From an uncultured Ruminococcus sp. (GTDB taxonomy: Bacteria; Bacillota_A; Clostridia; Oscillospirales; Acutalibacteraceae): DNA of 42,374 bases. The stretch lies in NCBI GenBank assembly GCA_902798605.1, contig CADBXH010000028.1:1-42374 (forward strand). The letters run 5' to 3'. How positions within the stretch are numbered: the stretch's first letter is position 1; each line of letters opens with the position of its first letter. Below the pieces are notes generated by a model. It searched no databases, was not told the origin of the DNA, and worked only from the letters and a program-made list of their open reading frames with translations. Positions 11,063 to 35,475 of the stretch are shown piece by piece. Position numbers and translations under genes: made by a program.

Positions 11063-11208
11063 CAAGTTAAAATTTTGCTTTGCAAAAGTTAAGATATGCT
11101 TCGCAAAGTTAAAATTTCGCTGAGCGAAAGTGAACGGTTAAACTCTTCACGGCGACAGCCTCTTAACTTGAACGAAGTGCGATCTTAACGGCGAAGCTCC
11201 TTAACTTA
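11063..11208 (-). repeat. Hairpin array in the 5' leader of the GH13 gene (array A)
   Basis: Read on the minus strand, short hairpins alternate with GTTAAG boxes (AAGTTAAGGAGCTTCGCCGT, then GTTAAGATCGCACTTCGTTC, AAGTTAAGAGGC). After the middle the boxes become CTTAAC/TTTAAC, as in TTTCGCTCAGCGAAATTTTA and CTTTTGCAAAGCAAAATTTT. The two halves could pair with each other. The array ends 18 bases before the GH13 start codon. It matches in order and orientation the array upstream of metA at 35303-35475. Confidence 0.8.
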
Positions 11209-11237
11209 AATATAACACTATTGACTGGATTTGGCAA
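11209..11237 (-). promoter_or_regulatory. Probable promoter of the GH13 gene
   Basis: On the minus strand TTGCCA (11237-11232) and TATATT (11214-11209) are 17 bp apart, directly before the hairpin array. The transcript would begin with the array as its 5' leader. Confidence 0.55.
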
Positions 11238-11259
11238 TATAATTCCCAATAAAAATCAC

Positions 11260-11288
11260 TTGCGAAAAAGTATTTTTCGGCATACTAT
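11260..11288 (+). promoter_or_regulatory. Probable promoter of the MecA-like gene
   Basis: TTGCGA (11260-11265) and TACTAT (11283-11288) are 17 bp apart, 33 bases before the proposed TTG start. It is back to back with the GH13 promoter. Confidence 0.55.
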
Positions 11289-11321
11289 GGAATTAGCAGT
11301 TTATTTTTGGAGGACGACGCT

Positions 11322-11873
11322 TTGACTGTTAACAAGCTGAGTGAAAACCGCGTGCTTATCGTGCTGTGCGAGCAGGATATCGCCGATAACGCGCTCGGTA
11401 AAGAGGGAATAGATTTTGACAACGGCGCGGCGCGGTCGCGCGTGATTTGGCTGACGCGCAGGGCGTGCAAAAGCTCGGGGATAGACACGGGCGGCAAGCG
11501 CGTTAATATCGAGGCTCTGCCGCTCGAAAAAAGCTGTTACCTGCTCGTGACCGTGGGAGCGGTCAAGCGGTACAGGCTGAAAAACTCAAACAGCGGATGC
11601 TGCTTTTGCCTCGGCGGCAGCACGGCGTTTTTGAACGCCGTCGAACAGCTTTACAGGCGGAACATCTGCTGCCGCAACAATTCCGCCTATAAGCTTAACA
11701 ACAATTATTATTTGGTTTTTGATTACCCTACGCTTCCCCAAAGCCTGAGCAATATCCTGCTCGAATACGGCAGAAAACTGAGCGGAAAATTCGCCGCCGC
11801 ACGTATCAAAGAAACCGCCAAGCCGATCTGTGAGCGCAACGCCGTGGAGGGAATTGGGAAATGGTTAGTATAG
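11322..11873 (+). CDS. MecA-like adaptor protein
   Basis: The 183-aa protein begins MTVNKLSENRVLIVLCEQDI, very like the N-terminal substrate-binding domain of MecA/YpbH, including the DFDNGAARS-type acidic turn. The C-terminal part, NNNYYLVFDYPTLPQSLSNI then LLEYGRKL, resembles the ClpC-binding domain. MecA adaptors hand substrates to the ClpC-ClpP protease. It is shorter than Bacillus MecA and has an unusual Cys cluster (SGCCFCLGG and RRNICCRN). I chose TTG 11322 because GGAGGA ends 7 bases before it; an earlier TTG at 11307 overlaps that site. Confidence 0.75.
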   Translation: MTVNKLSENRVLIVLCEQDIADNALGKEGIDFDNGAARSRVIWLTRRACKSSGIDTGGKRVNIEALPLEKSCYLLVTVGAVKRYRLKNSNSGCCFCLGGSTAFLNAVEQLYRRNICCRNNSAYKLNNNYYLVFDYPTLPQSLSNILLEYGRKLSGKFAAARIKETAKPICERNAVEGIGKWLV

Positions 11874-11894
11874 CAAGCATTTCCTTAACGCAGT

Positions 11895-11957
11895 TTAAAG
11901 GCTCCCCCGCGTGCGGGGGAGCTGGCACGGCTCCAAAGAGCCGTGACTGAGGGGGCA
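11895..11957 (+). repeat. Palindromic intergenic repeat, copy R1
   Basis: GGCTCCCCCGCGTGCGGGGG pairs within itself, and is followed by AGCTGGCACGGCTCC...GAGCCGTGACTGAGGGGGC, a second hairpin. The pattern (C5/G5 hairpin, TGGCACGGC, GCCGTGAC, GAGGGGG) recurs at 12011-12084 (inverted) and 13340-13403. It is a dispersed REP/MITE-like element. Confidence 0.8.
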
Positions 11958-12010
11958 TAGCTTTCCTCTTGCGGGATTTTTCCTTTGCGAACGGGGCATT
12001 ATCGGCTAGC

Positions 12011-12084
12011 CCGCCCCCTCCGTCACCGCCAACAAGTTGTCGGCGACACCTCCCCCGTAACAAGTGACGGGGGAGGCTTTAAAC
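12011..12084 (-). repeat. Palindromic intergenic repeat, copy R2 (inverted)
   Basis: Read on the minus strand it starts TTTAAAGCCTCCCCCGTCAC, then GGGGGAGGTGTCGCC and GGCGGTGACGGAGGGGGCGG. It is the inverted counterpart of R1, 53 bases away. The pair lies between two convergent genes, the MecA-like gene and the minus-strand gene at 12106-12537. Confidence 0.8.
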
Positions 12085-12105
12085 ATTAAACTCTAAACTC
12101 TAAAT

Positions 12106-12537
12106 TTACAAAAACGCCCTCATCTCTTTGATGTGCTCCTCCTCGGTGTCGAGCATCTTTTTGGCAAGCAGGGTCACATTTCGGTCGTTGCGGTCGTAAT
12201 CGCGCAGATGTTGAACCATTTTGTTGACTCCCATGGTATTGCCCTTGATCATCATCTCGGCGGCGTGGGAGGGAGAAGGGTCGCGGCGCAGGTCTCTCTG
12301 CGACGCGATTTTTGTCATTGTTTTTGCTACGGGGCTGATATGCTGCGCTTCCGCACCGCGGCTGCGAAGCATGGTGTTTGCCACATGGTAGATTTTTCCG
12401 TAGCGCACAAGCTGCTCGCACAATACGCTGTCGACAGCCGCGCTGTTTTTTACGCCCTTGCGCACGTTTTTGATTCCGTGACACCCCATCTCGGCGTTTT
12501 GAAGAATGTAATTCAGCATTTCTACATCATTGATCAT
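12106..12537 (-). CDS. Conserved helical protein of unknown function
   Basis: This 143-aa protein is predicted almost wholly helical: MINDVEMLNYILQNAEMGCH at the start, then a middle part with PSPSHAAEMMIKGNTMGVNK (from about residue 87) and a charged last helix TEEEHIKEMRAFL. I remember similar Clostridial proteins with an SPSHxAEMMIxGxTMG block, and the layout suggests a ferritin-like four-helix bundle. I cannot name its function or a metal site. AGAGGTGAT precedes the ATG. It is a single minus-strand gene; R2 lies 22 bases past its stop codon. Confidence 0.75.
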   Translation of the reverse strand: MINDVEMLNYILQNAEMGCHGIKNVRKGVKNSAAVDSVLCEQLVRYGKIYHVANTMLRSRGAEAQHISPVAKTMTKIASQRDLRRDPSPSHAAEMMIKGNTMGVNKMVQHLRDYDRNDRNVTLLAKKMLDTEEEHIKEMRAFL

Positions 12538-12612
12538 AAAATCACCTCTGGTTTTATGATTGGAAAAATTATTAAAAATATTCAGTTGAAATCAAATGAT
12601 TAATTGTGATAT

Positions 12613-12640
12613 AATAAAATGGCAGCCGCAAGGGCTGCCA
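12613..12640 (-). terminator. Intrinsic terminator of pduL
   Basis: TGGCAGCC/GGCTGCCA form an 8-bp stem with a 5-nt loop. On the minus strand it is followed by ATTTTATT. It lies 34 bases past the pduL stop codon. Confidence 0.75.
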
Positions 12641-12673
12641 CTACATTATTCGTTTTCAGTTGTCGATTATCAA

Positions 12674-13243
12674 TTAAACGATTATCTCTCCGTCAACTGT
12701 GCCTGCAAGGCCTGCGGCGTTGCTTTCGTCGGTGTCAACGTGCATCGCGGGAGCGTATTTGGGAGATACTCTTACAACCACATCACCAAAGATAGTCTCT
12801 CTGCCTGTGCCTATACCGACCTTGGCTGATACTACCTGCTGATCCTTGAGTCCGAACTCCTCGGCAGTTTTGGGATCGAGGTGGATATGTCTTTTTGCGG
12901 CGATAACGCCCTGAGCTATCTCGACCTCACCCTTGGGGCCTACGAGCTTGCAGCCGGGTGTACCCTGAACAGCGCCCGACTCTCTTACGGGAGCTGTGAT
13001 ACCGAGCTTGCGCGCGTCTGTGAGCGAAACCTCGACCTGATCATCGGGCCTTTCGGGACCGAGGATAGACATCGTCATCTCGCCTCTGGGGCCTACGACT
13101 GTGACCTTCTCAAAGCAGGCGAACTGACCGGGCTGAGAAAGATCCTTTTTGTTTGTGAGCTGATAACCCTCGCCGTAGAGCGCGTCGAGCGTAGCTCTTG
13201 TAACGTGAACGTGATGCGCGGAAGTTTCTACCATAATTTTCAT
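12674..13243 (-). CDS. pduL: Phosphate propanoyltransferase / phosphotransacetylase, PduL type
   Basis: This 189-aa protein shows the two beta-barrel halves of PduL. His-rich metal-binding motifs are SAHHVHV (residues 8-14), AAKRHIHLD (about 114-122) and APAMHVDTDE (about 164-173). GPRGEMTMSILGPERPDDQV and LVGPKGEVEIAQGVIAAKRH are family hallmarks. The enzyme interconverts acyl-CoA and acyl phosphate (acetyl or propanoyl). No shell proteins or encapsulation peptide are present, so it is probably a housekeeping cytosolic phosphotransacetylase rather than a microcompartment enzyme. It has its own promoter and terminator. Confidence 0.9.
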   Translation of the reverse strand: MKIMVETSAHHVHVTRATLDALYGEGYQLTNKKDLSQPGQFACFEKVTVVGPRGEMTMSILGPERPDDQVEVSLTDARKLGITAPVRESGAVQGTPGCKLVGPKGEVEIAQGVIAAKRHIHLDPKTAEEFGLKDQQVVSAKVGIGTGRETIFGDVVVRVSPKYAPAMHVDTDESNAAGLAGTVDGEIIV

Positions 13244-13294
13244 AATTTATTACCACCATTCATTTTTATTATCGCTTAGCGATTCATTATTTCT

Positions 13295-13323
13295 ATTTTA
13301 CTACTAATCAGGACAGATTTCAA
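13295..13323 (-). promoter_or_regulatory. Promoter of pduL
   Basis: On the minus strand TTGAAA (13323-13318) and TAAAAT (13300-13295) are 17 bp apart, 52 bases before the pduL ATG. A small ATCGC/GCGAT hairpin lies in the leader at 13271-13283. Confidence 0.6.
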
Positions 13324-13339
13324 CCTTTTTAAAACATTT

Positions 13340-13403
13340 AAAGCATCCCCCGTCACTTGTTACAGGGGATGTGGCACGGCGTTTGCGCCGTGACGGAGGG
13401 GGC
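13340..13403 (+). repeat. Palindromic intergenic repeat, copy R3
   Basis: GCATCCCCCGTCACTTGTTA then CAGGGGATGTGGCACGGCG and GCGCCGTGACGGAGGGGGC follow the same two-hairpin plan as R1 and R2. The CCCCCGTCACTTGTTAC segment is shared exactly with R2. It lies between the divergent pduL and uracil-DNA glycosylase genes. Confidence 0.8.
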
Positions 13404-13462
13404 AAACGCTGTTTGTTGCGCCGACCTTTCCAAAACAACAAAAAGTAAAGTGAGGAAACAAA

Positions 13463-14035
13463 ATGTACAATACTTGGGAAGAATTAAAGTCAGCCTGCCA
13501 AAATTGCAGAAAATGCGAGCTGTGCGAGACAAGAACGAACGTAGTCGTCGGGGTGGGCAACCCCGAGGCGGAGGTTATGTTTATCGGCGAAGGCCCCGGA
13601 GAAAACGAGGATTTGCAGGGCGAGCCGTTCGTGGGCAGAGCGGGTAAGCTGCTCGACAAAATGCTCACCGCCGTTGACCTTGACCGCAACAAGAATATTT
13701 ACATAGCAAATATCGTTAAGTGCCGCCCGCCCAAAAACCGCGACCCCAAGCCCGAGGAGCAGGAGCTTTGCATTGAATGGCTGCGCGACCAAGTCCGCCT
13801 TATCAGACCAAAGATAATCGTATGCTTGGGCAGGATCGCCGCCGGCAGGATCATAAAGTCCGATATAAAAATCACCAAGGAGCACGGTATCTGGTTCGAG
13901 AAAAACGGCATACTTATGATGGCTATGCTCCATCCCGCAGCCATCCTCCGCGACCCGCGCCGCAAGCCCGACGCGTTTGACGATTTTTTGAAGCTCAGAG
14001 AAAAAATCAACGAGGTCTGTGAGCACACTTATTAG
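13463..14035 (+). CDS. Family-4 uracil-DNA glycosylase
   Basis: The 190-aa protein has the Fe-S type UDG layout. [11 protein letters not shown] carries the first Cys pair, [20 protein letters not shown] (residues 38-57) is the active-site motif, and [18 protein letters not shown] supplies the second Cys pair, 16 residues apart. [11 protein letters not shown] near residue 155 is the DNA-intercalation loop. It removes uracil from DNA at the start of base-excision repair and usually binds a 4Fe-4S cluster. GTGAGGAAAC precedes the ATG. It appears to be a single gene. Confidence 0.92.
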
Positions 14036-14054
14036 AGTTGAGAGTTAATTGATT

Positions 14055-14190
14055 TTACCGCTGTTTTTATGTGGGGTTACCTCTGTGATGACAGCGGTAT
14101 TTGATGATAATAGACAGTTTGAAATATCAAGGAATAGAAAAAGTTAATTGAGTGGCACCGCGGGCGGTAGAACCTGCTGTGTTTTTTGTG
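14055..14190 (+). ncRNA. T-box-like leader element without an adjacent target gene
   Basis: AGTGGCACCGCGGG at 14151-14164 closely fits the T-box core (GGTGGnACCGCG). CACCGCGGG can pair with CCTGCTGTG to form a terminator stem directly before TTTTTT (14182-14187), as expected for a T-box terminator/antiterminator switch. Upstream, ACCGCTGT (14057-14064) and ACAGCGGT (14091-14098) form a stem, shorter than a classical Stem I. TGGC would pair with a tRNA end GCCA, meaning a G discriminator as in tRNA-Asp or tRNA-Asn. I could not fix the specifier codon. No biosynthetic or tRNA-synthetase gene follows within 500 bases. Confidence 0.5.
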
Positions 14191-14194
14191 TTAT

Positions 14195-14760
14195 AGAGAA
14201 TACAGAGTTGTTTTTTATCCCCCCTAATAAAACGGATAAAAACACTGTGATAAAATTGTTACAACAAAAGAGAGAGATACAATAGACAATAATTAATATC
14301 GGTCTACGCAGAATGGGTTTGTTAAGGAGGTGAAAATCTTACTGGGACGTTATTATAACTGGAAATGAGCCGTTTTCTTCAAAAGGGAATCGATGTAACG
14401 GAACATCTTGACAGTGGTATAAGCAGCGAGGCGATTATGTATCAACTGCTACTATGACTACCTCAATAAAACACTATTCAAATGGTAAATGAACGATACA
14501 GATTGCTTTACAACACAGTGCAGATTAAGTTTGCGATAGTATATGACATAATTAGATAGAGTATCAGGACGCACGGAACCCCAATCTAAAATACTACGTG
14601 GCATCGAGAAAGATAATGTGATTTTGAAAGCAGGTGAATGTTATGAATGATTGAAATTTAATAGTTAATTGAATAATGCTTTTGAAAATGAGGATTTGTT
14701 TTCAAAGTAGATAGATCTCAAATAAATGGATGAAATTTTTATAAATATAAAATAGAGGAG
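14195..14760. other. AT-rich gene-free stretch with only short broken frames
   Basis: No gene can be supported. A strong AAGGAGGTG at 14324-14332 leads only into a 12-codon frame from GTG, whose TGA overlaps an ATG opening a 30-codon frame (MSRFLQKGIDVTEHLDSGIS...). Another short frame ends ...YYDYLNKTLFKW. These look like remains of a decayed gene, but I recognise no family. CTTTTGAAAA/TTTTCAAAG (14679-14707) is an inverted repeat 60 bases before the lipoprotein gene. Confidence 0.5.
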
Positions 14761-14766
14761 GAAACT

Positions 14767-15849
14767 ATGAAAAAAATAATATCTTTGATACTGGTTTTGG
14801 CGTTTTGCGTATTATTCTGCGCATGTGGCACTAAAAGCTCTTCAACAAAAGAATCCCAAACTAATAGTAGTCAAAATAGTAACAGCATAACAAGGGATAG
14901 TTTATCTGAAAGAGCAAGAAAAGAAGCTGCGCAAACGTTAGGTTGTGACGAGAGTTTATTGCTTGACTCGGAAAATAATAAAACAGGTGATTATATTTTT
15001 GAATTAAAAGATGAAGGAAAAATGTATGATGAAATAAAAGTATGTAGTCTGAAATATGATTCTTCAAAAAATGATTTTTCATCGGAAGTTACTACAAAAA
15101 GAAAACTACATCCGACTGGTATATGGGGCAATTCGCTAGAAATTATTAGTTCACAAAATGGTATTGTAAACATTGCTAACTATAGTCTAGGTTCTAATTC
15201 ATATACCATGAAATATAATAGTTATCAAATATGTGCAGTTGAAAAGAATGATTATGATGAAACGGTAGTTGGGGAAAGTCTTGGGGATGAAGATAGCACA
15301 AATTCTTATTTTCCGTACGATTATTATGTTTTAGAAGCAATAGGTTCAAATGGGAGTTTATATGCATTTGATCAACATACGTTATATTATACAAAATTTA
15401 AACCTGCTCAATCTTTGTACTCTTCTGGGGGCCTAAATAAAGAGGCATTGGAGTCAAATACAACGGAAGGTTTAAAAGAGTATCTTAACGGAAGAGGCAA
15501 ATTATACGGGATGTATGATGAAGAATATAAAGGAGATGTTTCCGAAACAATAGTGGTACCGAAAGATGTTGTTGGAAAAACTGTTCCGGAAGCGATAAAG
15601 TACCTTCAAAGTATTGGTTTTGGTGAAATGGAAAAGTATTATGAAAAACCTGAAGTAGTTGATGATATATTTTGTGAAAACAATTCCGATTTTAGCGGTA
15701 GTCCCATAAGCGTAATAGGCTATCGGTTTGATAAGGGTTCAAATTTAATACTATTTAATCACGATGAACATTCTTCTGATAATGATTCTGAGGATGAAGA
15801 TGAAAATTCAGACGAAGAAGAGGATGAATATGTAGATGTTTTTGATTGA
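14767..15849 (+). CDS. Putative lipoprotein with a PASTA-like domain and acidic tail
   Basis: The 360-aa product starts MKKIISLILVLAFCVLFCAC, a signal peptide with a probable lipidated Cys20. A Ser/Asn-rich linker follows, then an unrecognised domain (residues about 45-240). Residues about 265-310, VVPKDVVGKTVPEAIKYLQS and onward, resemble one PASTA domain. The last 30 residues are almost only Asp, Glu and Ser. Codon use is visibly more AT-rich than that of all neighbours, which suggests recent transfer. An AGGAGG site precedes the ATG. It has no obvious operon partners. The domain plan recalls the kinase-linked lipoprotein at 38201-39184. Confidence 0.7.
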   Translation: MKKIISLILVLAFCVLFCACGTKSSSTKESQTNSSQNSNSITRDSLSERARKEAAQTLGCDESLLLDSENNKTGDYIFELKDEGKMYDEIKVCSLKYDSSKNDFSSEVTTKRKLHPTGIWGNSLEIISSQNGIVNIANYSLGSNSYTMKYNSYQICAVEKNDYDETVVGESLGDEDSTNSYFPYDYYVLEAIGSNGSLYAFDQHTLYYTKFKPAQSLYSSGGLNKEALESNTTEGLKEYLNGRGKLYGMYDEEYKGDVSETIVVPKDVVGKTVPEAIKYLQSIGFGEMEKYYEKPEVVDDIFCENNSDFSGSPISVIGYRFDKGSNLILFNHDEHSSDNDSEDEDENSDEEEDEYVDVFD

Positions 15850-15893
15850 TAATTGTTTTTAAAACGAAAACTGAGGTTGTTCAATGTAAATTG

Positions 15894-15925
15894 AGGGGCG
15901 AGCATTGCACGTCCCTATATTTTTT
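15894..15925 (+). terminator. Probable terminator after the AT-rich lipoprotein gene
   Basis: AGGGGCG pairs with CGTCCCT (G-T pairs allowed) around a 9-nt loop, followed by ATATTTTTT. The stem resembles half of the GTAGGGGCGGAC repeat seen elsewhere in the window. Confidence 0.6.
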
Positions 15926-15951
15926 CTACAGTTTTCAACTCTATTTTCCTC

Positions 15952-15980
15952 TTGTATTCTCACCGCTTTTGTGCTATAAT
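15952..15980 (+). promoter_or_regulatory. Promoter of aspS-gatCAB
   Basis: TTGTAT (15952-15957) and TATAAT (15975-15980) are 17 bp apart, 55 bases before the aspS start codon. Confidence 0.65.
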
Positions 15981-16034
15981 ACTTTAGAATGGGTAAAAAT
16001 ATCAATGCACACTAACTTGAAAGGACAGTTTTTG

Positions 16035-17674
16035 ATGATAAAACCAAATGTTTACCGTACCGTAAGCTGCGGTGAGTTGAGAGAAGAAAACATCGGACAG
16101 CAGGTCAAGGTTGCCGGCTGGGTAGAGAACATCCGCGATCACGGCGGCGTTATGTTCCTCGATATCCGTGATGAATACGGAGTTTTGCAGGTTGTTGTTC
16201 ACAATGACGAGCTGCTCAAAAATATCAACAAGGAGTGTACCGTCACCCTCAGCGGCGAGGTCGTTAAGCGTGATGAGGACACTATAAATAAAAAGATCGC
16301 AACGGGCTTGGTTGAGGTCCACACCGACGATATCAAGGTGCTCGGCAAGTGCAAAAACGCGCTTCCGTTTGAGGTGGCTACTTCGACAAATACATCAGAG
16401 GACGTAAGGCTCAAGTACCGTTACCTCGACCTCAGAAATCCCAAGGTGCACAACAATATCCTGCTCCGCTCAAAAGTCATTTCCTTCCTGCGTGACAAAA
16501 TGCAGGAGCTCGGCTTTACCGAGATCAACACACCGATACTTTCCGCTTCGTCACCCGAGGGCGCGCGCGACTATCTGATCCCCAGCCGCAGGCACAAGGG
16601 CAAGTTCTACGCTCTGCCGCAGGCTCCGCAGATCTTCAAGCAGCTCCTTATGGTGTCGGGCTTCGATAAATACTTCCAGATCGCTCCCTGCTTCCGCGAC
16701 CGGCGAGTTCTATCAGCTCGACTACGAGATGGCGTTTGCCACTCAGGAGGATGTATTTGATATCGCCGAGCAGGTGCTCTACGAGGTATTCACAAAGTTC
16801 AGTAACAAAGAGGTTTCTAAGCCTCCGTTTGCGCGTATTCCCTTTGAAGAGGCTATGGTCAAGTACGGCACCGACAAGCCCGACCTCAGAAATCCGCTTA
16901 TCATCAAAGAGATCAGCGATATGTTTGTAGAGACCGACTTTGCTCCCTTCCGCAAAAAGTGCGTTCGTTCGATCAACGTACCCGGCGCCGCGGCGCAGAG
17001 CAAAAAGTGGTTCAAGCGTATGGAGGAGTTCGCGCTCTCCATCGGTATGAAGGGCTTGGGCTATGTCAAGGTAAACGAGGATATGACCTTTGACGGTCCT
17101 ATCGATAAGTTCTTAAAGCCCGGCGACCGCGAGGAGCTCATCGAGCGCAATTCATCAAAGGCGGGCCCTCAAGCTGATCGATGAGAGCAAGTTTGAGCTC
17201 TGCTTCATTGTTGACTTCCCGATGTACGAGCGCGACGACGACGGCAAGGTAATATTTACGCACAATCCCTTCTCAATGCCCCAGGGCGGCTTGGACGCTC
17301 TGCTCAACAAGGATCCCGAGGAGGTTTTGGCGTACCAGTATGACATCGTCTGCAACGGCGTAGAGCTTTCTTCGGGCGCTGTCAGAAACCACGATATTGA
17401 GATAATGAAAAAGGCGTTCGAGATCGCGGGTTATTCCGAGGACGACCTCAAGGCTAAGTTCACGGCGCTCTACAACGCGTTCCAGTACGGCGCTCCGCCT
17501 CACGCGGGTATGGCTCCCGGCGTTGACCGTATGATAATGCTCCTCACCGATGAGGAAAATATCCGCGAGGTAATCGCGTTCCCGATGAACTCCAACGCTC
17601 AGGACGTGCTCCTCGGCGCGCCGAACGAGGTAACCGAGCAGCAGCTCCGTGAGGTTCATGTTAAGTTAAGATAA
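16035..17674 (+). pseudogene. aspS: Aspartyl-tRNA synthetase gene with two internal deletions
   Basis: The frame starts MIKPNVYRTVSCGELREENI at ATG 16035 and has the N-terminal OB-fold (VKVAGWVENIRDHGGVMFLD), the class II catalytic core and motif 3 ([12 protein letters not shown]). The frame breaks twice. At about 16700, IAPCFRD should continue through the EDARADRSPGEF-type motif 2 stretch but jumps to GEFYQLDYEMAF, a loss of about 26 bases. At about 17165, ERNSSKAG jumps to [12 protein letters not shown], a loss of roughly 100 bases. Since the enzyme is essential and the rest is intact and well conserved, assembly collapse is likelier than a dead gene. It charges tRNA-Asp and, with GatCAB, may feed Asn-tRNA. 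Confidence 0.9.
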
Positions 17675-17678
17675 AATT

Positions 17679-17712
17679 GTAGGGGCGGACCCGCGTGTCC
17701 GCCCGTTTTTAT
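17679..17712. repeat. GTAGGGGCGGAC palindromic repeat, copy G1
   Basis: GTAGGGGCGGACCCGCGTGT then CCGCCCG: the arms GGGCGGAC/GTCCGCCC form a hairpin, followed by TTTTT. It lies between aspS and gatC. Copies occur at 24408-24436 and twice at 42144-42221. Confidence 0.8.
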
Positions 17713-17737
17713 AAAAACTTCCGAAAGGATGAAAATT

Positions 17738-18016
17738 ATGGTAACAAGAGAAGACGTAGAAAACATCGCCCTGCTTTCAAAGCTTTTTGTTCCCGAAGAG
17801 GAGCTTGACGGGCTTACGCAGTCAATGCAGGAGATAGTCGACTTTGCGGATACTATCAACAACGCTCCCGCAAGCGACGAGGGCTTTGACAACATCAACA
17901 ACCTCTCAAACGTGTTCCGCGAGGACGAGGTCGTGGAGTCTTACCCGAGCACGGAGATACTCAAAAACGCTCCCGAGCAGGCAGAGGATCACTTCCTCGT
18001 GCGCAACAGAGAATAA
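17738..18016 (+). CDS. gatC: Asp/Glu-tRNA amidotransferase subunit C
   Basis: The 92-aa protein (MVTREDVENIALLSKLFVPE...) has the GatC pattern: an N-terminal helix with VENIALLSKL, then QEIVDFADTINN and a C-terminal FREDEV...NAPEQAEDHFLV tail. GatC stabilises the GatA-GatB complex that converts Asp-tRNA-Asn or Glu-tRNA-Gln into the amide form. I favour ATG 17738 because AAAGGA ends 9 bases before it; an earlier in-frame ATG at 17729 overlaps that site. It is followed 12 bases later by gatA. Confidence 0.93.
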   Translation: MVTREDVENIALLSKLFVPEEELDGLTQSMQEIVDFADTINNAPASDEGFDNINNLSNVFREDEVVESYPSTEILKNAPEQAEDHFLVRNRE

Positions 18017-18028
18017 GGCGGTGTAAGA

Positions 18029-20801: not shown

Positions 20802-20810
20802 ACCAAACAA

Positions 20811-24407: not shown

Positions 24408-24436
24408 GTAGGGGTAGACCTATGTGTCCGCCCTAC
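24408..24436. repeat. GTAGGGG palindromic repeat, copy G2 (diverged)
   Basis: GTAGGGGTAGACCTATGTGT then CCGCCCTAC: the same plan as the copy at 17679, but its arms have become GTAGGG/CCCTAC. It lies inside the aro operon between aroB and aroA, with no T-run on the operon's strand, so it need not terminate transcription. Confidence 0.7.
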
Positions 24437-26911: not shown

Positions 26912-26915
26912 ATTT

Positions 26916-27914: not shown

Positions 27915-27921
27915 TTAAGTA

Positions 27922-27935
27922 GCAAATTTATTTGC
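27922..27935. promoter_or_regulatory. Small palindrome at the acpP transcription start
   Basis: GCAAAT and ATTTGC flank a 2-base centre, 7 bases after the -10 box. The position suits a repressor site. It does not match any operator I can name with confidence. Confidence 0.4.
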
Positions 27936-28013
27936 AACAAAACCATTGTAGCATAAAAATAGTGCTCTTGTCTACAACATAAGGAGTGCAATTTAACTTA
28001 GGGAGGAATTATA

Positions 28014-28241: not shown

Positions 28242-28259
28242 TCAAATCGTAATTAAACT

Positions 28260-28290
28260 GAGGACGGTCAGCCGTCCTCTTTTTATTTTT
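28260..28290 (+). terminator. Intrinsic terminator of acpP
   Basis: GAGGACGG/CCGTCCTC form a perfect 8-bp stem with a TCAG loop, followed by TTTTTATTTTT. Confidence 0.92.
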
Positions 28291-28339
28291 GCAAAATATA
28301 TTAACTCCGCTGTTTTGAGTTTATGCTTTCCGCCGGCAC

Positions 28340-28368
28340 TTGAAAAGAGAACCGGGCTGTGATACAAT
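28340..28368 (+). promoter_or_regulatory. Promoter of the second TetR gene
   Basis: TTGAAA (28340-28345) and TACAAT (28363-28368) are 17 bp apart, 30 bases before the ATG at 28398. Confidence 0.65.
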
Positions 28369-28397
28369 ATAATAAAGATTCAACTTTGAGGTGGGGT

Positions 28398-28955
28398 ATG
28401 ACATCACTTACAAAGGGCGCGATCAAACAGTCGTTTTTAAAGCTGCTCAATCAAAAGCCTCTGAGCAAAATAACCGTAAAAGAAATTGCGGAGGAATGCA
28501 AAATCAACCGCAATTCGTTTTATTATCACTACAACGATATTCCGTCGCTTGTTGAAGAAATTTTAAACGAGCAGATCGACGAGATCGTATCCCTCGGTTC
28601 GGACGCGTCGATTTATGAGAGCATTTTAACCGGAATCGACTTTGCGCTCCAAAACAAAAAAGCTGCAATGCACATCTACAACTCCGTAAATAAGGAGATG
28701 TTTGAGCTGTATATAAACCGAGTGGCACAGCGCACAGTTGACGGATATATGGAGCTCGCCGCAAAAAAATACAATATCTGCGACAGGGACAAAGAGGTCG
28801 TTACAATGTACTATAAATCGCTTATTGTGGGATTTGTGTTCAATTGGCTCAGCAACGGGATGAGCAACGACCTGACCGGTGACCTAAAGCGGATTTGCAA
28901 GCTGTTTGAGGGCAATACCGAGCTTGTTTTGCAAAAGTGCGAAAAAAACAAATAA
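28398..28955 (+). CDS. TetR/AcrR-family regulator beside the MMPL transporter
   Basis: From ATG 28398 the 185-aa product begins MTSLTKGAIKQSFLKLLNQK, then ITVKEIAEECKINRNSFYYH (residues 24-43), a TetR helix-turn-helix of the DhaS-like type. The C-terminal part is a helical domain ending in charged residues. GAGGTGGGG ends just before the ATG. The frame is open from 28359, but those codons overlap the promoter's -10 region, so 28398 is preferred. It probably represses the MMPL and YhgE-like genes downstream. This is inferred from adjacency and the inverted repeats at 29073-29115. Confidence 0.88.
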   Translation: MTSLTKGAIKQSFLKLLNQKPLSKITVKEIAEECKINRNSFYYHYNDIPSLVEEILNEQIDEIVSLGSDASIYESILTGIDFALQNKKAAMHIYNSVNKEMFELYINRVAQRTVDGYMELAAKKYNICDRDKEVVTMYYKSLIVGFVFNWLSNGMSNDLTGDLKRICKLFEGNTELVLQKCEKNK

Positions 28956-28963
28956 TAAATTGA

Positions 28964-28993
28964 GCTGTTGCGTAATAACGCAACGGCTTTTTT
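28964..28993 (+). terminator. Intrinsic terminator after the second TetR gene
   Basis: GCTGTTGCG/CGCAACGGC form a 9-bp stem (one G-T pair) with a 6-nt loop, followed by six T. Confidence 0.88.
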
Positions 28994-29072
28994 GTTATGC
29001 CGGGTATTTCACATGGCATTATTTTTTATTCCCGAGTTAGACTAAACTAACACGATACATAAATAATGCTTC

Positions 29073-29115
29073 TTATTTGTCGCAAATCATTAGACAAATT
29101 AAGATAAATGTCTAA
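29073..29115. promoter_or_regulatory. Overlapping inverted repeats, putative operator/promoter of the MMPL operon
   Basis: TTAGACA (29090-29096) and TGTCTAA (29109-29115) form an exact 7-bp inverted repeat with a 12-bp spacer. TTATTTGTC (29073-29081) and GACAAATTAA (29093-29102) form a second, imperfect one sharing the GACA box. A possible -35 TTGTCG (29077) and -10 TAAGAT (29100) with 17-bp spacing fall inside them. The promoter match is weak; the symmetry is clear. Confidence 0.5.
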
Positions 29116-29209
29116 AAACCAGGCACTTTATGGAATATGTCTATTTATCATTATTCTTAAAAGGAATAAAATTAAAGATGGAATAATCTATTGAAAGGAG
29201 TGCGCTTGA

Positions 29210-31285
29210 ATGAAATTCGGAAAAGCGGTTGTAAAATGCAGGATCGTTATTCTTATTGTTTCTGCGGTGCTGCTTATTGCCGCGTTTTTTGGAATGATTA
29301 ACACAAGGGTTAATTACGATATGCTCAACTATTTGCCCGACAGCCTTGATACTGTAAAGGGTCAACAATATATGCTTGAGGACTTTAACAAGGGCGCGTT
29401 TTCATTTTTAATTTTTGAAAATGTCGACAAAAAAGACATTGTAAAAACAGAGGATAAAATAAAAAAGGTAGACCACGTCGCTACGGTTTTGTGGTATGAC
29501 GATTTGGCGGATGAGTCAATTCCGATGCAGATTCTGCCTGATAAGGTTTACGACGCCTTTAACAAGGGCGACGACACGCTTATGGCAGTGTTCTTCGACA
29601 GCTCAAGTTCCTCGGATGAGACCATGAACGCCATAACCGAAATCAGAAAAATCGCGGGCGATCAATGCCTTGTATCCGGAATTTCGGCAATGGTAACGGA
29701 TCTGCGTGATTTGTGCGAGAGAGAAGAAGCGCTCTACGTCGCAATCGCCGTAATTTTGGCGGTAATAGCGATGATAGTATTTTTAGACAACTGGATCATC
29801 CCGTTTATATTTTTGGCGAGTATCGGAGTTGCGATTATGTTCAACCTCGGCTCAAATGTATTTATGGGGGAGATATCATACATAACCAAGGCTCTGTCGG
29901 CGGTGCTTCAGCTGGCGGTAACTATGGATTACTCAATATTCCTGTGGCACAGCTACGGCGAACAAAAGCAAAAGTATTCCGACAATAAAGAAGCTATGGC
30001 GGTCGCTATAAAAGAAACCGTAACCTCGGTGCTCGGAAGCTCGATCACGACCGTAGCCGGATTCATAGCGCTGTGCTTTATGACCTTTACGCTCGGCAAG
30101 GACTTGGGAATTGTAATGGCAAAGGGCGTGCTGCTCGGAGTTTTGGGCTGCGTAACGATCCTGCCCGCTATGATTTTGCTGCTCGACAAACCGCTTACAA
30201 AAACAATGCACCGCTCGCTGATTCCCTCAACCAAAAAGCTCGCAAAGGGGATCGTAAAGATTTTTCCGGTATTCTTGATTCTTTTTGCGGTGATCGCGTT
30301 TCCGGCTTACTACGGCTACTCACAGACGAACAATGAGGTTTACTACGATCTCTCGCGCAGCCTTCCGAAGGATATGTCAAACGTAGTTGCAAACACAAAG
30401 CTCAAGGAAGAGTTCGGAATGGGCAATACCCATATGGTGCTTGTAAATTCTCAGCTGGATTCCAAAACCAAGCGAAAAATGACAGAAGAGTTTAATAAGG
30501 TTGACGGAATCAAGCTCTCGCTCGGACTCGACAGCATTGTCGGCCCGATGATACCCGAGGAGATGGTTCCCGAATCGGTCAAGGGCGTTTTGAGAAGCGA
30601 CCGCTGGGAGATGATAATCCTCAGCTCAGAATACAAAACCGCGACCGAAGAAATGGGCGAGCAGATTTCTCAGCTGAACGATATAATCAAAAAAAACGAT
30701 CCCGACGGATTGCTTGTCGGCGAGGCGGCGTGTACAAACGATCTAATAAACATAACCTCGGTCGATTTTGCAACGGTAAACGCAATATCGATCATCGCGA
30801 TATTCTTCATAATAATGATCGTGGAAAGGAGCATAAGTCTTCCGTTGATTTTGGTTGCGGTAATTGAGCTCGCAATATTCATCAACCTCGGGCTTCCGCA
30901 TTATCTCGGTGAGAACTTACCGTTTATCGCGCCGATTTGTATAAGCACGATCCAGCTCGGCGCAACAGTTGACTACGCGATATTGATGACCACGCGCTAC
31001 AAAAAGGAGCGGTCTCTCGGCAACGATAAAAAAACCGCTGTCGCTACCGCGCTCGAAACATCAATACCATCAATTATCGTCAGCGCTATGGGGCTGTTCG
31101 CTGCGACAGTCGGTGTGGCGATTTACTCCGATGTCGATATGATCGGCTCACTGTGCGCGCTTATGGCAAGGGGCGCTATAATCAGTATGTTCTGTGTAAT
31201 ACTGATTCTTCCGGCGATGTTTATGCTGTTTGACAAGTTCATCGGCGTAACAACGCTCGGGTTCAGACCAAAAAAGAAAAACTGA
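29210..31285 (+). CDS. MMPL/RND-family transporter
   Basis: The 691-aa protein has the RND plan in duplicate: an N-terminal helix, an extracytoplasmic domain (residues about 33-170), six helices, then a second loop (about 385-530) and six more helices. LQLAVTMDYSIFLWHSYGEQ and IQLGATVDYAILMTTRYKKE carry the Asp of the proton relay in helices 4 and 10. MMPL proteins export lipids, siderophores or drugs in actinobacteria; YdfJ/YdgH-like proteins occur in Firmicutes. The substrate is unknown. A GAAAGGAG site precedes the ATG. The YhgE-like gene follows after 32 bases, indicating one operon under the TetR regulator. Confidence 0.92.
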   Translation: MKFGKAVVKCRIVILIVSAVLLIAAFFGMINTRVNYDMLNYLPDSLDTVKGQQYMLEDFNKGAFSFLIFENVDKKDIVKTEDKIKKVDHVATVLWYDDLADESIPMQILPDKVYDAFNKGDDTLMAVFFDSSSSSDETMNAITEIRKIAGDQCLVSGISAMVTDLRDLCEREEALYVAIAVILAVIAMIVFLDNWIIPFIFLASIGVAIMFNLGSNVFMGEISYITKALSAVLQLAVTMDYSIFLWHSYGEQKQKYSDNKEAMAVAIKETVTSVLGSSITTVAGFIALCFMTFTLGKDLGIVMAKGVLLGVLGCVTILPAMILLLDKPLTKTMHRSLIPSTKKLAKGIVKIFPVFLILFAVIAFPAYYGYSQTNNEVYYDLSRSLPKDMSNVVANTKLKEEFGMGNTHMVLVNSQLDSKTKRKMTEEFNKVDGIKLSLGLDSIVGPMIPEEMVPESVKGVLRSDRWEMIILSSEYKTATEEMGEQISQLNDIIKKNDPDGLLVGEAACTNDLINITSVDFATVNAISIIAIFFIIMIVERSISLPLILVAVIELAIFINLGLPHYLGENLPFIAPICISTIQLGATVDYAILMTTRYKKERSLGNDKKTAVATALETSIPSIIVSAMGLFAATVGVAIYSDVDMIGSLCALMARGAIISMFCVILILPAMFMLFDKFIGVTTLGFRPKKKN

Positions 31286-31317
31286 GAATTGATAAATAAT
31301 TTACGGAGGTAAGTTTT

Positions 31318-33690
31318 ATGAATAAAATTAAAAAGATAATGCCCAAGGCTTTATCGGCGCTTTTAAGCCTTATTATTATTTGCAGCAGCGTAGCGGTTGC
31401 GTCATACTCGGCGGGAGCGGAAAGCACCGGCGCCGCGGTTCAAAAGAACGAGCAAAAGGCAGAGAAAAAAACCGATGCAAAAGCAACCAAAGAAAAAGCA
31501 AAAAGCGGACTGAGCAAAAGCGAAACAGTCTATGTAATTGCCAAGGCGAACGGTGAACCCAAAAAGGTGATTGTCAGCAACTGGATCAAAAATCCCGGCA
31601 AGGCGCAGAAGATAGTGGACATAACAAACCTCAAAAATATCGAGAACCTCAAAGGCGACGAATCTTACAGTATAAACGAGAACAAGGCGCACGAATGGGA
31701 CGCCAAGGGAAATGATATTTACTATCAGGGAGAGGGCACAACCGAGCTTCCCGTTGGTGTAAGCGTCAGCTACAAATTAAACGGCGCGCCGATCACTCCC
31801 GAACAGCTCGCGGGCAAAAGCGGAAAAGTCACAATGCACTTTGACTACACAAACCGCAAGTTTGAGACGGTAAAAATCAACGGCAAACCCGAAAAAATAT
31901 ATGTTCCTTTTGTAATGCTCACCGGTATGCTTCTCGACAACGAAAAATTCAAAAATGTTGAGATCACAAACGGCAAGGTAATCAACGACGGAAACCATAC
32001 ATATGTTGCCGGATTTGCTATGCCCGGTCTGCAGGAGAGCCTCGGAATCAGCAAAAAAGATTTTGAGCTTCCTTCCTCCGTAGAAATCACCGCGGACGCA
32101 ACAAATTTTGAGCTCAGCACAACACTGACTATAGCTACAAACGAGGTGTTCTCGGGCATTGATTCCTCAAAGGCGGAGGGCAAGGTGAACGAGCTCGAAA
32201 AATCCGTAAATCAGCTCGCCGACGCCGCTAAAAAGCTCTCTGACGGAACATCACAGCTTTATCTTGGTGTGGGAACTCTGCTCAATAAATCAGGCGAGCT
32301 CGTAGACGGAGTAAACCGCCTTAACCAAGGAGCTCAGCAGCTCGACAACGGTACATTATCACTCAAAAACGGAGCCTCAAAGCTCAGCGACGGAACCGAA
32401 TCGCTCGACAGCGGAATCGGCAAGGCTGACAGCGGCGCAGGTGACCTTAATAACGGAGCCGGCGAGTTGTCGGACGGCGCTTATTCGCTCGACAGCGGTG
32501 TAGCTAAGCTTCAGGGATATATCGCTCAGCTCAAAGGCGGACTTGGAACGATCTCGTCCAACAGCACCAAGCTCAACGCCGGCGCTAAGCAAGTGTTTAA
32601 TTCTCTTCTTGACGCGGCAAACAGTCAAATAGCCGCTTCGGGAGTTACAGCTCCGACCCTCACGATTGATAACTTTGATACAGTGCTTCAAAATTTGATT
32701 GACTCAATGAGCAAAGAAAACGCGGAAAAACTCGCGTACGATACTGCCTACAAAACAGTTTCTTCCACGGTAAACAGCCAGCGCGACGTGATTGCGGCTG
32801 CGGTTGAGGCGAACATCAGAAAACAGGTAACCGAGGGCGTGCTTGCCGCGGCAGGGCTTTCGATGTCTGCCGACGAATACGACTCGGCGGTTGCCGCGGG
32901 TTCGATCCCGGACGAAACAGTGGCGCAAATCAGCGCGCAGATCGGTGCTCAGATGAGCGGTATGCAGGGCACGATCGACTCAAAAACAGACGAAAAAATC
33001 GAGCAGCTGATCGAAGAAAATATGAACAGCGATCAGGTCAAGGCGCAAATCGCCGACGGCGTTGCAAAAGCAGACGCCGGCAGACAGTCGCTGATCGCGT
33101 TAAAGAAGCAGCTTGACAGCTATAATGAGTTCTATAATGGGGTTCTCAGCTACACTGCCGGTGTTGACCGGGCAAACACAGGCGCTCAGCAGATCTTAAG
33201 CGGAACCAACGACCTCAAAAACGGTTCAAGCTCTCTTGCGAACGGAGCTTACGCGCTCAAAAACGGTACAAATGAGTTAAAGAACGGCACATCTCAGCTC
33301 AAAAGCGGTTCGGAGCAGCTCAAAGACGGAGCGAACGCGATTAACAGCGGAGCGGGTGAACTGAAAAACGGCGCGGGTCAGCTCAGAGACGGACTCGGTC
33401 AGCTCAGTGGTTCGATGCCGTCTTTGGTTGCCGGCGTAAATCAGCTCAACAACGGCGCAATGCAGCTCGATCAGGGTATGAAGAAGTTCAAAACCGACGG
33501 CATTGACAAAATCAAAAAGGCGATCGACAGCGACCTCAAGCCTGTCGCGCAAAGACTTAAAGAGATCAAGCGCGTTTCCGATAGCTACAATACTTACAGC
33601 GGAGCCGCAAAAGGCACCGACAGCAAGGTGAACTTTATCTTTAAGACCGACGGCATAAATACAAAAGACGACTCGGATTCGGAAGAATAA
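31318..33690 (+). CDS. Large secreted YhgE/Pip-like coiled-coil protein
   Basis: The 790-aa protein has a signal peptide (MNKIKKIMPKALSALLSLII, cleavage near residues 35-37), a Lys/Ala-rich linker and a beta-rich domain (about 65-285). Two long helical regions (about 290-400 and 620-730) follow, built from 7-residue steps such as LKNGTNELKNGTSQLKSGSE. These L-x-x-G-x-x-x-L steps are those of YhgE/Pip family coiled coils. A helical region of a different kind lies between them. Unlike YhgE, no C-terminal membrane domain is present; the end is acidic (KDDSDSEE). A periplasm-like partner that spans the wall space for the MMPL pump is the simplest reading. Confidence 0.78.
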   Translation: MNKIKKIMPKALSALLSLIIICSSVAVASYSAGAESTGAAVQKNEQKAEKKTDAKATKEKAKSGLSKSETVYVIAKANGEPKKVIVSNWIKNPGKAQKIVDITNLKNIENLKGDESYSINENKAHEWDAKGNDIYYQGEGTTELPVGVSVSYKLNGAPITPEQLAGKSGKVTMHFDYTNRKFETVKINGKPEKIYVPFVMLTGMLLDNEKFKNVEITNGKVINDGNHTYVAGFAMPGLQESLGISKKDFELPSSVEITADATNFELSTTLTIATNEVFSGIDSSKAEGKVNELEKSVNQLADAAKKLSDGTSQLYLGVGTLLNKSGELVDGVNRLNQGAQQLDNGTLSLKNGASKLSDGTESLDSGIGKADSGAGDLNNGAGELSDGAYSLDSGVAKLQGYIAQLKGGLGTISSNSTKLNAGAKQVFNSLLDAANSQIAASGVTAPTLTIDNFDTVLQNLIDSMSKENAEKLAYDTAYKTVSSTVNSQRDVIAAAVEANIRKQVTEGVLAAAGLSMSADEYDSAVAAGSIPDETVAQISAQIGAQMSGMQGTIDSKTDEKIEQLIEENMNSDQVKAQIADGVAKADAGRQSLIALKKQLDSYNEFYNGVLSYTAGVDRANTGAQQILSGTNDLKNGSSSLANGAYALKNGTNELKNGTSQLKSGSEQLKDGANAINSGAGELKNGAGQLRDGLGQLSGSMPSLVAGVNQLNNGAMQLDQGMKKFKTDGIDKIKKAIDSDLKPVAQRLKEIKRVSDSYNTYSGAAKGTDSKVNFIFKTDGINTKDDSDSEE

Positions 33691-33729
33691 ATAAGATATA
33701 ATAGTTGATTTTAGATTATCATTTAGCAG

Positions 33730-33755
33730 CGGCGACCCTTGCGGTCGCCGTTTTT
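33730..33755 (+). terminator. Intrinsic terminator of the MMPL operon
   Basis: CGGCGACC/GGTCGCCG form a perfect 8-bp stem with a 5-nt loop, followed by TTTTT. Confidence 0.92.
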
Positions 33756-33834
33756 CCGTTAAGGCAAAGGCGCCTCATTTTTTGCAATGTCAAAAAACAA
33801 CCATTAAACTCTCAACTCTAAGCTCTAATTGTAA

Positions 33835-33862
33835 TTGACAAAACTTTTATTTATAGTATAAT
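33835..33862 (+). promoter_or_regulatory. Promoter of proS
   Basis: TTGACA (33835-33840) and TATAAT (33857-33862) are perfect hexamers 16 bp apart, 39 bases before the proS start. Confidence 0.8.
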
Positions 33863-33901
33863 AGAAATGTTACGATAAAAACTCATTTTGGAGGAATATA
33901 T

Positions 33902-35300
33902 ATGGCAGACAATAAAAAAATGGTCGAGGCTATAACAAGCCGCGACGAGGACTTTGCAAAGTGGTATACCGACATTGTAAAAAAGGCGGAGCTTGTAGAT
34001 TACTCCGGCGTTAAGGGCTGTATGGTCATCCGCCCTTACGGTTACGCTATCTGGGAGAATATGCAGGCGGATATGGACAGGCGCTTTAAGGAGACGGGTC
34101 ACGAGAACGTCTATATGCCGATGTTCATCCCCGAAAGCCTGCTCCAAAAGGAAAAGGATCACGTTGAGGGCTTTGCTCCCGAGTGCGCGTGGGTAACCAT
34201 AGGCGGTCAGGAAAAGCTCACCGAGCGCCTCGCCGTCCGTCCTACACACCTACCGCGATCTGCCAAAGCTGTATAACCAGTGGTGCAGCGTTGTAAGATG
34301 GGAAAAAACCACCCGTCCGTTCCTGCGCACCTCAGAGTTCTTGTGGCAGGAGGGTCACACAATGCATGCCACCGCCGAGGAGGCCAAGGAAGAGACACTC
34401 AAAATGCTCAAGGTATACAGCGATTTTTACACCGAGACCCTCGCTATCCCCGCGGTCATCGGTCAAAAGACCGAAAAAGAAAAGTTCGCGGGAGCAGAGG
34501 CTACATATACTATCGAGCCGATGATGCACAATGGCGTCGCTTTGCAGGGCGGAACCTCGCACTACTTCGGCGACGGCTTTGCAAAGAGCTTCGGCATCAC
34601 CTACGCGGGCAAGGACAACAAGCTCCACCACCCGCACCAGACCTCATGGGGAACCTCTACCCGTATGATCGGCGCGCTTATTATGGTTCACAGCGATGAC
34701 GACGGACTTGTTCTGCCGCCCAAGATCGCGCCTATCCAGGTGGCTATCATCCCGATCGCCCAGCACAAGGAGGGCGTTCTTGACAAGGCTTACGAGCTAA
34801 AAGCAGAGCTTGAGCAGAGCTTCAGAGTAAAGCTTGACGATTCCGATCACGCTCCGGGCTGGAAGTTCTCGGAGTACGAGATGAAGGGCGTGCCCGTAAG
34901 AGTAGAGATCGGACCCAAGGATATTGAAAAGAACCAGTGCGTAGTAGTTCGCCGCGACACCCGCGAAAAGACGTTTGTTCAGCTCGATCTGCTGACAGAG
35001 TATATCGAAAACCTGCTTGTCGTTATCCATCAGGATATGTACAACCGCGCGCTTAAGAATACACAGGAAAAGACCTTCACAGCCACAAGCTACGAGGAGT
35101 TCCTTGACATCGCGGCAAACAAGCCCGGATTTATCAAGGCTATGTGGTGCGGCGACAGCGAGTGCGAGGACAAGATCAAGGACGAAACAGGCGGCGTAAA
35201 GAGCAGATGCATCCCCTTTGAGGAGGAGCACCTCGCCGACACCTGCGTATGCTGCGGCAAGCCCGCCAAGCATATGGTGTTCTGGGGAAAACAGTATTAA
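33902..35300 (+). pseudogene. proS: Prolyl-tRNA synthetase gene with one internal deletion
   Basis: The first frame gives [20 protein letters not shown] through [12 protein letters not shown]. The frame breaks at about 34245 and resumes as [20 protein letters not shown]. The missing segment is the conserved SETLFCEHYANI-type stretch after motif 1, about 40 bases. Downstream all is normal: [20 protein letters not shown] (motif 2), then the anticodon-binding domain and a Cys-rich tail with CGDSECEDK and CVCCGK, ending in Tyr as in eukaryote-like ProRS. It attaches Pro to tRNA-Pro and is essential, so the gap is more likely an assembly loss than a dead gene. GGAGGA precedes the ATG. Confidence 0.9.
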
Positions 35301-35302
35301 TT

Positions 35303-35475
35303 GAGTTAAGATTGGACTTCGTCCAAGTTAAGAGGCTTGCGCCGTTAAGATTACACTTCGTGCAAGTTAAGAGACTTCGTCGTAAAAAGCTTTGCGCAGC
35401 AAATCTTCACTTTCGCGCAGCGAAACCTTAACTTGCGACAGAAATCTTAACTTTTGCGAAGCAAAATCTTCACTA
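35303..35475 (+). repeat. Hairpin array in the 5' leader of metA (array B)
   Basis: Short hairpins with TTCG loops alternate with GTTAAG boxes: GTTAAGATTGGACTTCGTCC, AAGTTAAGAGGCTTGCGCC, GTTAAGATTACACTTCGTGC. In the second half the boxes become CTTAAC/CTTCAC, as in TTCACTTTCGCGCAGCGAAA and CTTAACTTTTGCGAAGCAAA. The array ends 21 bases before metA, just upstream of its AAAGGAGAG site. It matches the array in the GH13 leader in order and in orientation relative to the gene. Confidence 0.85.

Follow-up and report, generated by a model that had tools for sequence, protein, structure and literature searches.

Based on the comparison of two hairpin arrays with sites in related genomes, it was concluded that both are probably copies of a non-coding dispersed element, similar to repetitive extragenic palindromic (REP) sequences and miniature inverted-repeat transposable elements (MITEs), whose conserved property would be the formation of DNA hairpins. 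The arrays, named A and B, lie upstream of a GH13 gene and of metA, respectively, in a 42,374-nucleotide (nt) stretch of DNA from an uncultured Ruminococcus sp. (contig CADBXH010000028.1), which is referred to at its full length as the window. Similar elements are common between genes in gut Clostridia, and because they litter these intergenic spaces, the element is not a dedicated regulator of GH13 and metA. The original prediction had presented the arrays as homologous leaders of two unrelated genes, belonging to either a mobile element or a regulatory RNA family. The likeness of A and B was confirmed; the reading as a leader or an RNA family was downgraded, the leader-like position probably being a by-product of insertion.

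The following features were assigned to the arrays:

11063-11208, minus strand: array A, a whole element in the GH13 leader, with three clear GTTAAG-type units and one degenerate unit, then three to four CTTAAC-type units.
11115-11129, minus strand: array A hairpin TTTCGC-TCA-GCGAAA, at a position common to array B, also scored as terminator-like.
11073-11087, minus strand: array A hairpin TTTTGC-AAA-GCAAAA, at a position common to array B.
35303-35475, plus strand: array B, a whole element in the proS-metA spacer.
35305-35381, plus strand: forward half of array B, four units of a GTTAAGA box and a hairpin.
35312-35326, 35334-35343, 35351-35365 and 35373-35381, plus strand: hairpins of the forward half of array B.
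35391-35473, plus strand: inverted half of array B, with hairpins at 35391-35403 (loop GCA), 35411-35425 (GCA), 35433-35444 (degenerate) and 35452-35466 (GAA).

The unit of the window arrays consisted of a GTTAAGA box and, after it, a short hairpin. Units of the second half were inverted, with the hairpin preceding CTTAAC or the variant TCTTCAC, and up to four units faced up to four inverted units. All four motifs quoted in the original prediction were found in both arrays in the described order and strand, and the mid-array switch from GTTAAG to CTTAAC was real. The third unit of array B (GTTAAGATTACACTTCGTGCAA) differed from the quoted consensus at one base, and the fourth forward unit of array A was degenerate. 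The boxes of the inverted half of array B were, in order, TCTTCAC, CTTAAC, CTTAAC and TCTTCAC. Three hairpins of its forward half had a TTC loop on the plus strand, corresponding to GAA on the box (CTTAAC) strand, and one had a four-nt loop. On the box strand, seven of the nine three-nt loops in the window were GNA (6/6 in array B, 1/3 in array A) and none was TNC; when G129 and G149 were included, the latter read by eye, GNA accounted for 12 of 16 loops, again with no TNC.

Arrays A and B were homologous from end to end in a MAFFT alignment, with array A lacking the first unit of array B. Their likeness was beyond chance: the local score was 139, whereas 500 Markov-shuffled versions of B scored 18.1 on average and 36 at most. 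A repeat search returned shared stretches with 87% likeness over 46 nt, 83% over 42 nt and 89% over 37 nt, and a motif search of the window revealed no third box cluster. A closed fold of the whole array was predicted for both, with folding z-scores of -3.2 as DNA and -2.5 as RNA for array A and of -3.1 and -2.6 for array B, which were significant but modest.

The relatives of metA placed the window in the Ruminococcus bromii neighbourhood, the best being that of Ruminococcaceae bacterium P7 with 86% protein identity. Among 30 metA loci fetched from the genus, 29 proS-metA spacers were readable, and a GTTAAG-class array was present in none of them; the spacer of R. bromii YE282 was likewise empty. 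Three spacers held an element of a sister class, described below. Several of the remaining ones contained other repeats, and others were plain and 22-74 nt long (for example, in P7, G129, G089 and RUG13738). At the GH13 leader, the window array was present in none of 14 relatives. At the place of array A, this leader was short in G129, carried a GTAG-starting palindrome in G098 and a heptamer repeat in G088. It was concluded that the metA and GH13 spots tolerate varied repeat insertions and that the window array is not a conserved leader.

Exact window motifs had no matches in the bacterial genome contigs and the viral contigs searched. A pattern of three CTTAAC boxes matched in 52 of the 161 genus genomes; the matches listed were mostly coding-like or simple repeats by eye, and GTTAAG/CTTAAC-type hairpin arrays were recognized among them in G129 only, with a two-hairpin piece in G149. 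By eye, two CTTMAC boxes indicated no further arrays in ten relatives, and three TCTTMAC boxes matched in 16 of 398 family genomes with no hairpin array among the matches listed. At least 120 stretches with three CTTAAC boxes were found in viral contigs, of which 80 were kept as loci. A relaxed hairpin-chain finder run on 160 loci (80 metA, 80 viral) returned three chains, all viral and resembling short direct repeats; this finder detects locus L310 but misses the degenerate arrays of the window, therefore its zero in the metA loci is weak.

The sister class, CAATTCAT, was recognized when CAATTCATG-box arrays were exposed by the backward-read control of a pattern search, which was strong in some genomes, and by the metA spacers. 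Its three-box pattern matched in 19 of the 161 genus genomes, a few of which had matches that looked coding or like simple repeats, and six or more matches were recorded in ten genomes (G047, G075, G082, G097, G107, G109, G140, G147, G151 and G152). A stricter pattern matched in 11 of 398 family genomes, one of which (G335) apparently had a simple repeat. The full element of about 220 bp (212-280 bp in eight measured) consisted of four units, a centre and four inverted units, the centre being 62-66 nt long in 25 of the 39 elements with facing halves. Half arrays occurred too, and in G047 and G121 the halves stood in the opposite order, as in the window. In 63 loci (60 regions and three metA loci), chosen from the listed exact three-box matches and not at random, 285 of 304 units were perfect hairpins, compared with 3% of random stretches of equal length, and 70 distinct stems were counted.

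Copies of this class at different loci were similar. In G107, four pairs showed 80-86% likeness across 190-207 nt and included both relative orientations; in G147, two copies matched at 87% over 195 nt. The mobile-element part of the original prediction gained support from homologous copies at unrelated loci, from sites where relatives lack the array and from the dozens of loci with sister elements. At a spacer (in L392, L401, L403 and L399) which, judging by the protein ends, we take to be purH-purD, an element stood in the same place in G075, G109 and G147 with differing stems, and a decayed remnant was seen in G085; 19 of the 28 readable loci had a spacer of only 13-37 nt there, and five contained other sequence. 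These same-place elements in several species imply that some insertions are old and shared, and the spacer offers a ready-made site for studying the turnover of stems.

The placement of the CAATTCAT arrays was analyzed with genes called by a simple longest-open-reading-frame (ORF) finder in mostly draft genomes, where start codons were sometimes set too far upstream. The gaps holding arrays (n = 53) were 37 tandem, 13 convergent and 3 divergent, and the other gaps of at least 20 nt were 104 tandem, 33 convergent and 35 divergent. Divergent gaps were depleted (3/53 versus 35/172, p = 0.011), and the convergent ones did not differ (p = 0.44). A separate ORF call on 57 arrays gave 36 tandem, 11 convergent and 3 divergent cases, with 5 inside a called ORF and 2 undetermined. 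The expectation that copies are always sense-oriented upstream of start codons was not borne out, since the CAATTCAT centre ran with the tandem genes in 8 cases and against them in 9 (n = 17, by eye; the direction was assigned by MAFFT on a weakly conserved centre). Within 200 nt of the arrays, 17 of 53 stop codons lay 12-16 nt from the outermost box, compared with 2 of 32 start codons, so that the outer hairpin begins at the stop codon. This sharp peak is a stronger sign than the overall bias.

The genes and signals around the window arrays were as follows:

9512-11044, minus strand: GH13 (alpha-amylase family) gene, downstream of array A.
11209-11237, minus strand: GH13 promoter, TTGCCA, 17 nt and TATATT with a preceding TG; array A starts directly after the -10 box.
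34341-35300, plus strand: C-terminal part of proS (prolyl-tRNA synthetase), whose stop codon precedes the first array B box by 4 nt.
35497-36441, plus strand: metA (homoserine O-succinyltransferase), downstream of array B.

Array B occupies the space from the proS stop codon to the metA ribosome-binding site. Any array running from the stop codon of one gene to just short of the next ribosome-binding site looks like a leader, which explains B; array A is an insertion into a leader. We proposed that the element was inserted once into the proS-metA spacer and once into the GH13 leader, downstream of the -10 box and upstream of the ribosome-binding site, and insertion in those two spots would make it look like the leader of both genes.

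It was unlikely that the arrays are regulatory RNA leaders, in which the transcribed array would fold into a closed multi-hairpin and control translation or termination of GH13 and metA. Array A follows the -10 box of the GH13 promoter directly, and it is therefore probably transcribed and part of the GH13 mRNA as a leader, so that array A may still have a role as RNA; this promoter was recognisable by eye in 13 of 14 relatives, G091 being different. No promoter-like or terminator-like site was found at 35200-35500, around array B. One hairpin of array A (11129-11115) was terminator-like, with 1 found against 0.3 expected, and the arrays end, as described earlier, close to the start codon (18 nt before the ATG for A, 21 nt for B). 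The box halves are able to pair mutually, and the RNA folding z of about -2.5 is also in line with a folded transcript; however, there was no Rfam match at the gathering score in the window, and five sister loci yielded just two sub-threshold matches to eukaryotic families, outside the arrays. A metA riboswitch was likewise rejected, as the window had no Rfam match. The sister element in the metA spacer of three relatives would suit a leader as well, yet the window class itself was missing from all 29 metA spacers and 14 GH13 leaders, 13 of the 53 sister gaps were convergent, and G.T pairs were rare in the stems. The RNA-family part of the original prediction was not supported, given the convergent gaps, the mixed orientation and the lack of a conserved leader position.

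The stems of the CAATTCAT class did covary, compensatory changes being what the original prediction had suggested looking for. Up to four Watson-Crick types were found per pair position in hairpins of 9, 11 and 13 nt (131 distinct sequences), and the Watson-Crick count was above the maximum of 500 shuffles at 10 of 12 pair positions and equal to it at two; two positions, outer or loop-closing, had only a small margin (59 versus 56), as the pair there is nearly invariant. Among 830 cells of 190 distinct units, 11 were G.T, 6 A.C and 14 other mismatches. In 24 tRNAs from the fetched loci, G.U made up 39 of 502 pairs (p = 5e-9 against the G.T share), and just this share can be compared fairly because ARAGORN reports no A.C pairs. 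The three-nt loops on the box strand (n = 222) were GNA in 145 cases and TNC in one, and 203 were closed by C-G. Outside arrays, GNA was found in 292 of 3142 perfect hairpins of 80 clostridial loci (p = 7e-82) and in 165 of 1581 in the array loci, a background with stems of at least four pairs, whereas array hairpins include stems of three. Given the rarity of G.T pairs and the C-GNA-G loops, a hallmark of unusually stable DNA hairpins, the covariation points to DNA rather than to RNA.

The stability of GNA mini-hairpins was reportedly studied by Yoshizawa et al. (as cited in PMC6479982). For phage N4 promoters, it is reported that hairpin extrusion, which takes place at a superhelical density of -0.035, requires the closing C-G pair as well as the G and A of the loop, and that the two strands differ (PMC4496689). 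Given the scarcity of G.T relative to tRNA G.U and the N4-type C-GNA-G loops, the formation of DNA hairpins was considered the likelier conserved property. We proposed that DNA structure is what selection or a mobilising enzyme recognises. Supercoiling may drive the hairpins out of the duplex, or they may fold while the DNA is single-stranded in replication; they would then serve as a substrate for a putative trans-acting nuclease or transposase.

A third class with the box ATTTCAT was matched in 49 of 325 genomes of the order, compared with 2 for the backward control, and at least one match (G607) looked coincidental. The sample comprised 32 loci (20 regions and 12 more), again chosen from listed exact three-box matches and not at random. 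The plan was of facing halves, up to four and four, with the polarity of the window; 119 of 156 units were perfect, with 41 stems. Of 83 three-nt loops, 54 were GNA and one TNC, and 77 were closed by C-G. A tRNA or tmRNA gene was present within 300 nt of 15 of the 36 arrays of this class; these 15 came from ten genomes and all lay on the 3' side of the gene, compared with 0 of 73 arrays for CAATTCAT (p = 5e-9, which treats arrays as independent, though six of the 15 come from G653):

L467, L474-L476, L479-L481, L483-L486, L492, L495, L496 and L498: ATTTCAT arrays 3' of a tRNA or tmRNA gene.

In G653, six of the seven fetched copies stood behind six different tRNA genes, and five of them had a letter-for-letter identical terminator-like hairpin, which thus seems to be part of the element. 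Around the seventh copy, L482, no tRNA was detected within the stretch fetched.

The superfamily unit was accordingly described as a 7-nt box (TCTTAAC/TCTTCAC in the window, AATTCAT or ATTTCAT elsewhere) with a short hairpin that is mostly perfect, free in its sequence and often closed, on the box strand, by a C-GNA-G loop. Full elements commonly had four units facing four inverted ones. The GNA loops on the box strand tie the window arrays to the sister classes despite the differing boxes. Pure tandems of the same heptamers, free of hairpins, were also observed, namely (TCTTCAC)n at G321:C7:17898-17967, in G508:C10 and others, and (AATTCAT)n at G145:C55:8123-8171. Because such tandems exist, it is suggested that the arrays grow on a heptamer backbone.

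The same tandems would suit an explanation by neutral palindromes, in which hairpins arise between heptamer tandem boxes and are kept perfect by template switching in replication, with no mobility or function. Quasi-palindrome correction produces double changes without selection, no excess of G.T and a high turnover of stems, all of which agree with the stems observed. This explanation seemed improbable, however, since the head-to-head plan with a 62-66 nt centre, the similar copies at unlinked sites, the strand-polar GNA bias and the placement at tRNA 3' ends are left unexplained by it.

The nearest described elements are REPs and REPINs, which combine a short palindrome with a short conserved box and are inverted, multi-copy and intergenic, between tandem or convergent genes and near 3' ends, as far as the consulted parts of PMC3733652 and PMC3116915 report. 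The window-type elements were alike in palindrome and box, inversion and extragenic multi-copy placement between tandem or convergent genes. Mobilisation as REPs or REPINs proper by a RAYT (REP-associated Y1 tyrosine transposase) was nevertheless held to be very doubtful. The intergenic arrangement of palindromes with a short box is that of REPs (PMC3733652, in part), and compensatory changes are reported for REPINs too (PMC3116915, in part), yet the GTAG or CGTC tag at the palindrome end of REPs was replaced in the arrays by the boxes TCTTAAC/TCTTCAC, AATTCAT and ATTTCAT. The stem sequence was free rather than conserved, commonly up to eight hairpins made up an element, and the loops were C-GNA-G. 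Four of the ten heavy CAATTCAT carriers (G082, G109, G151 and G152, which as drafts may be incomplete) had no Y1_Tnp match, and no association with Y1 was found. Palindromes starting with GTAG do accompany the arrays, both those of the window and that of G129.

Bacterial MITEs and modular repeats such as pneumococcal BOX elements are small, non-coding, multi-copy and modular, with inverted halves. The arrays share this plan, and the same element at many unlinked sites, as is usual for MITEs, was seen in the copies of A and B, G107, G147 and G653. They differ in that their halves are hairpin arrays and in that no target duplication or autonomous parent was found. The integron attC core is GTTRRRY; kinship of GTTAAG/CTTAAC to attC was rejected, as the box departs from this core at one position and in the other classes.

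The hairpins of phage N4 early promoters have, in the part of PMC4496689 consulted, short stems, a 3-nt loop with a 5' G and a 3' A, C-G closure, strand-specific stability and supercoil-driven extrusion. A loop of this type on a short stem was found in 145/222 (CAATTCAT), 54/83 (ATTTCAT) and 12/16 (window, G129 and G149) cases, with 1/3 in array A. The arrays differ from N4 in being tandem and inverted and in lying in a bacterial chromosome with no known virion RNA polymerase, and extrusion would be a presumption here.

Several observations weigh against a mobile DNA-hairpin element. The window arrays have other boxes and another polarity than the CAATTCAT class, so that class kinship rests on the unit plan and not on alignable sequence, and just one of three three-nt loops in array A is GNA. 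Pairing in the ATTTCAT class was looser than in CAATTCAT, with 407 of 466 pairs Watson-Crick, 13 G.T, 8 A.C and 38 other, and 119 of 156 units perfect. Even with no selection, mutational correction of palindromes could yield DNA hairpins that are perfect. Neither a transposase nor a target-site duplication nor an autonomous copy was found, the element-free sites being too diverged to define a duplication; a transposase flanked by arrays was likewise not noticed, though no systematic search for one was made. Of the 10 heavy carriers, 6 had a Y1_Tnp match, as did 74 of the remaining 151 genomes of the genus (p = 0.53). The sister element in the proS-metA spacer of 3 of 29 relatives (G097, G152 and G075) means that this spacer was hit by two classes of one superfamily, which chance or a hot spot may explain and which also fits a role at metA. 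Array A lies in a divergent gap, a type the CAATTCAT class tends to avoid. At an equal 33-nt cut-off, the stop-codon bias was moderate (29/53 stops versus 12/32 starts).

We concluded that the arrays represent a variant type of dispersed palindromic element, marked by a DNA-hairpin signature that is unusual and by at least three box classes. No description of such arrays was found by title or abstract in the open-licence PubMed Central literature, among the matches listed. A wider proposal is possible, though we would not yet favour it: a so far undescribed superfamily of Oscillospirales mobile DNA, made of ordered arrays of supercoil-extruded, strand-specific C-GNA-G mini-hairpins with free stems. 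A structure-reading enzyme would insert them beside stop codons and, in one of the classes, directly after tRNA genes.

If selection or an enzyme does read the hairpin shape rather than the sequence, common gut bacteria would contain, in these elements, a natural library of hairpins able to extrude, diverse in their stems but with one preferred type of loop, and cruciform extrusion in living chromosomes would become directly testable. The elements also caution that pronounced covariation of stems ahead of genes, normally taken to indicate a structured RNA, can arise at the DNA level, and a scarcity of G.U together with C-GNA-G loops helps to separate the two.

Further observations were made in the window and the collections. 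In the window, proS runs in two frames near 34240-34260 (33902-35300), where a short stretch seems missing owing to an assembly error or a true lesion. About 700 bases at 14036-14766, before the gene at 14767, hold no ORF of 80 amino acids, and G+C is 33% over 14001-16000. Thirteen stretches of IMG/VR contigs (L362-L374) carried CAATTCATG arrays, including one 5.1-kb contig with four matches, possibly host DNA binned as viral. Palindromes of the form GTAGGGGCGGAC...GTCCGCCC, REP-like and starting with GTAG, were located at 17669-17720, 24408-24433 and 42134-42221 of the window as a separate family; a repeat of the GTAG type also takes up the GH13 leader in G098 and the interval that interrupts the array of G129.

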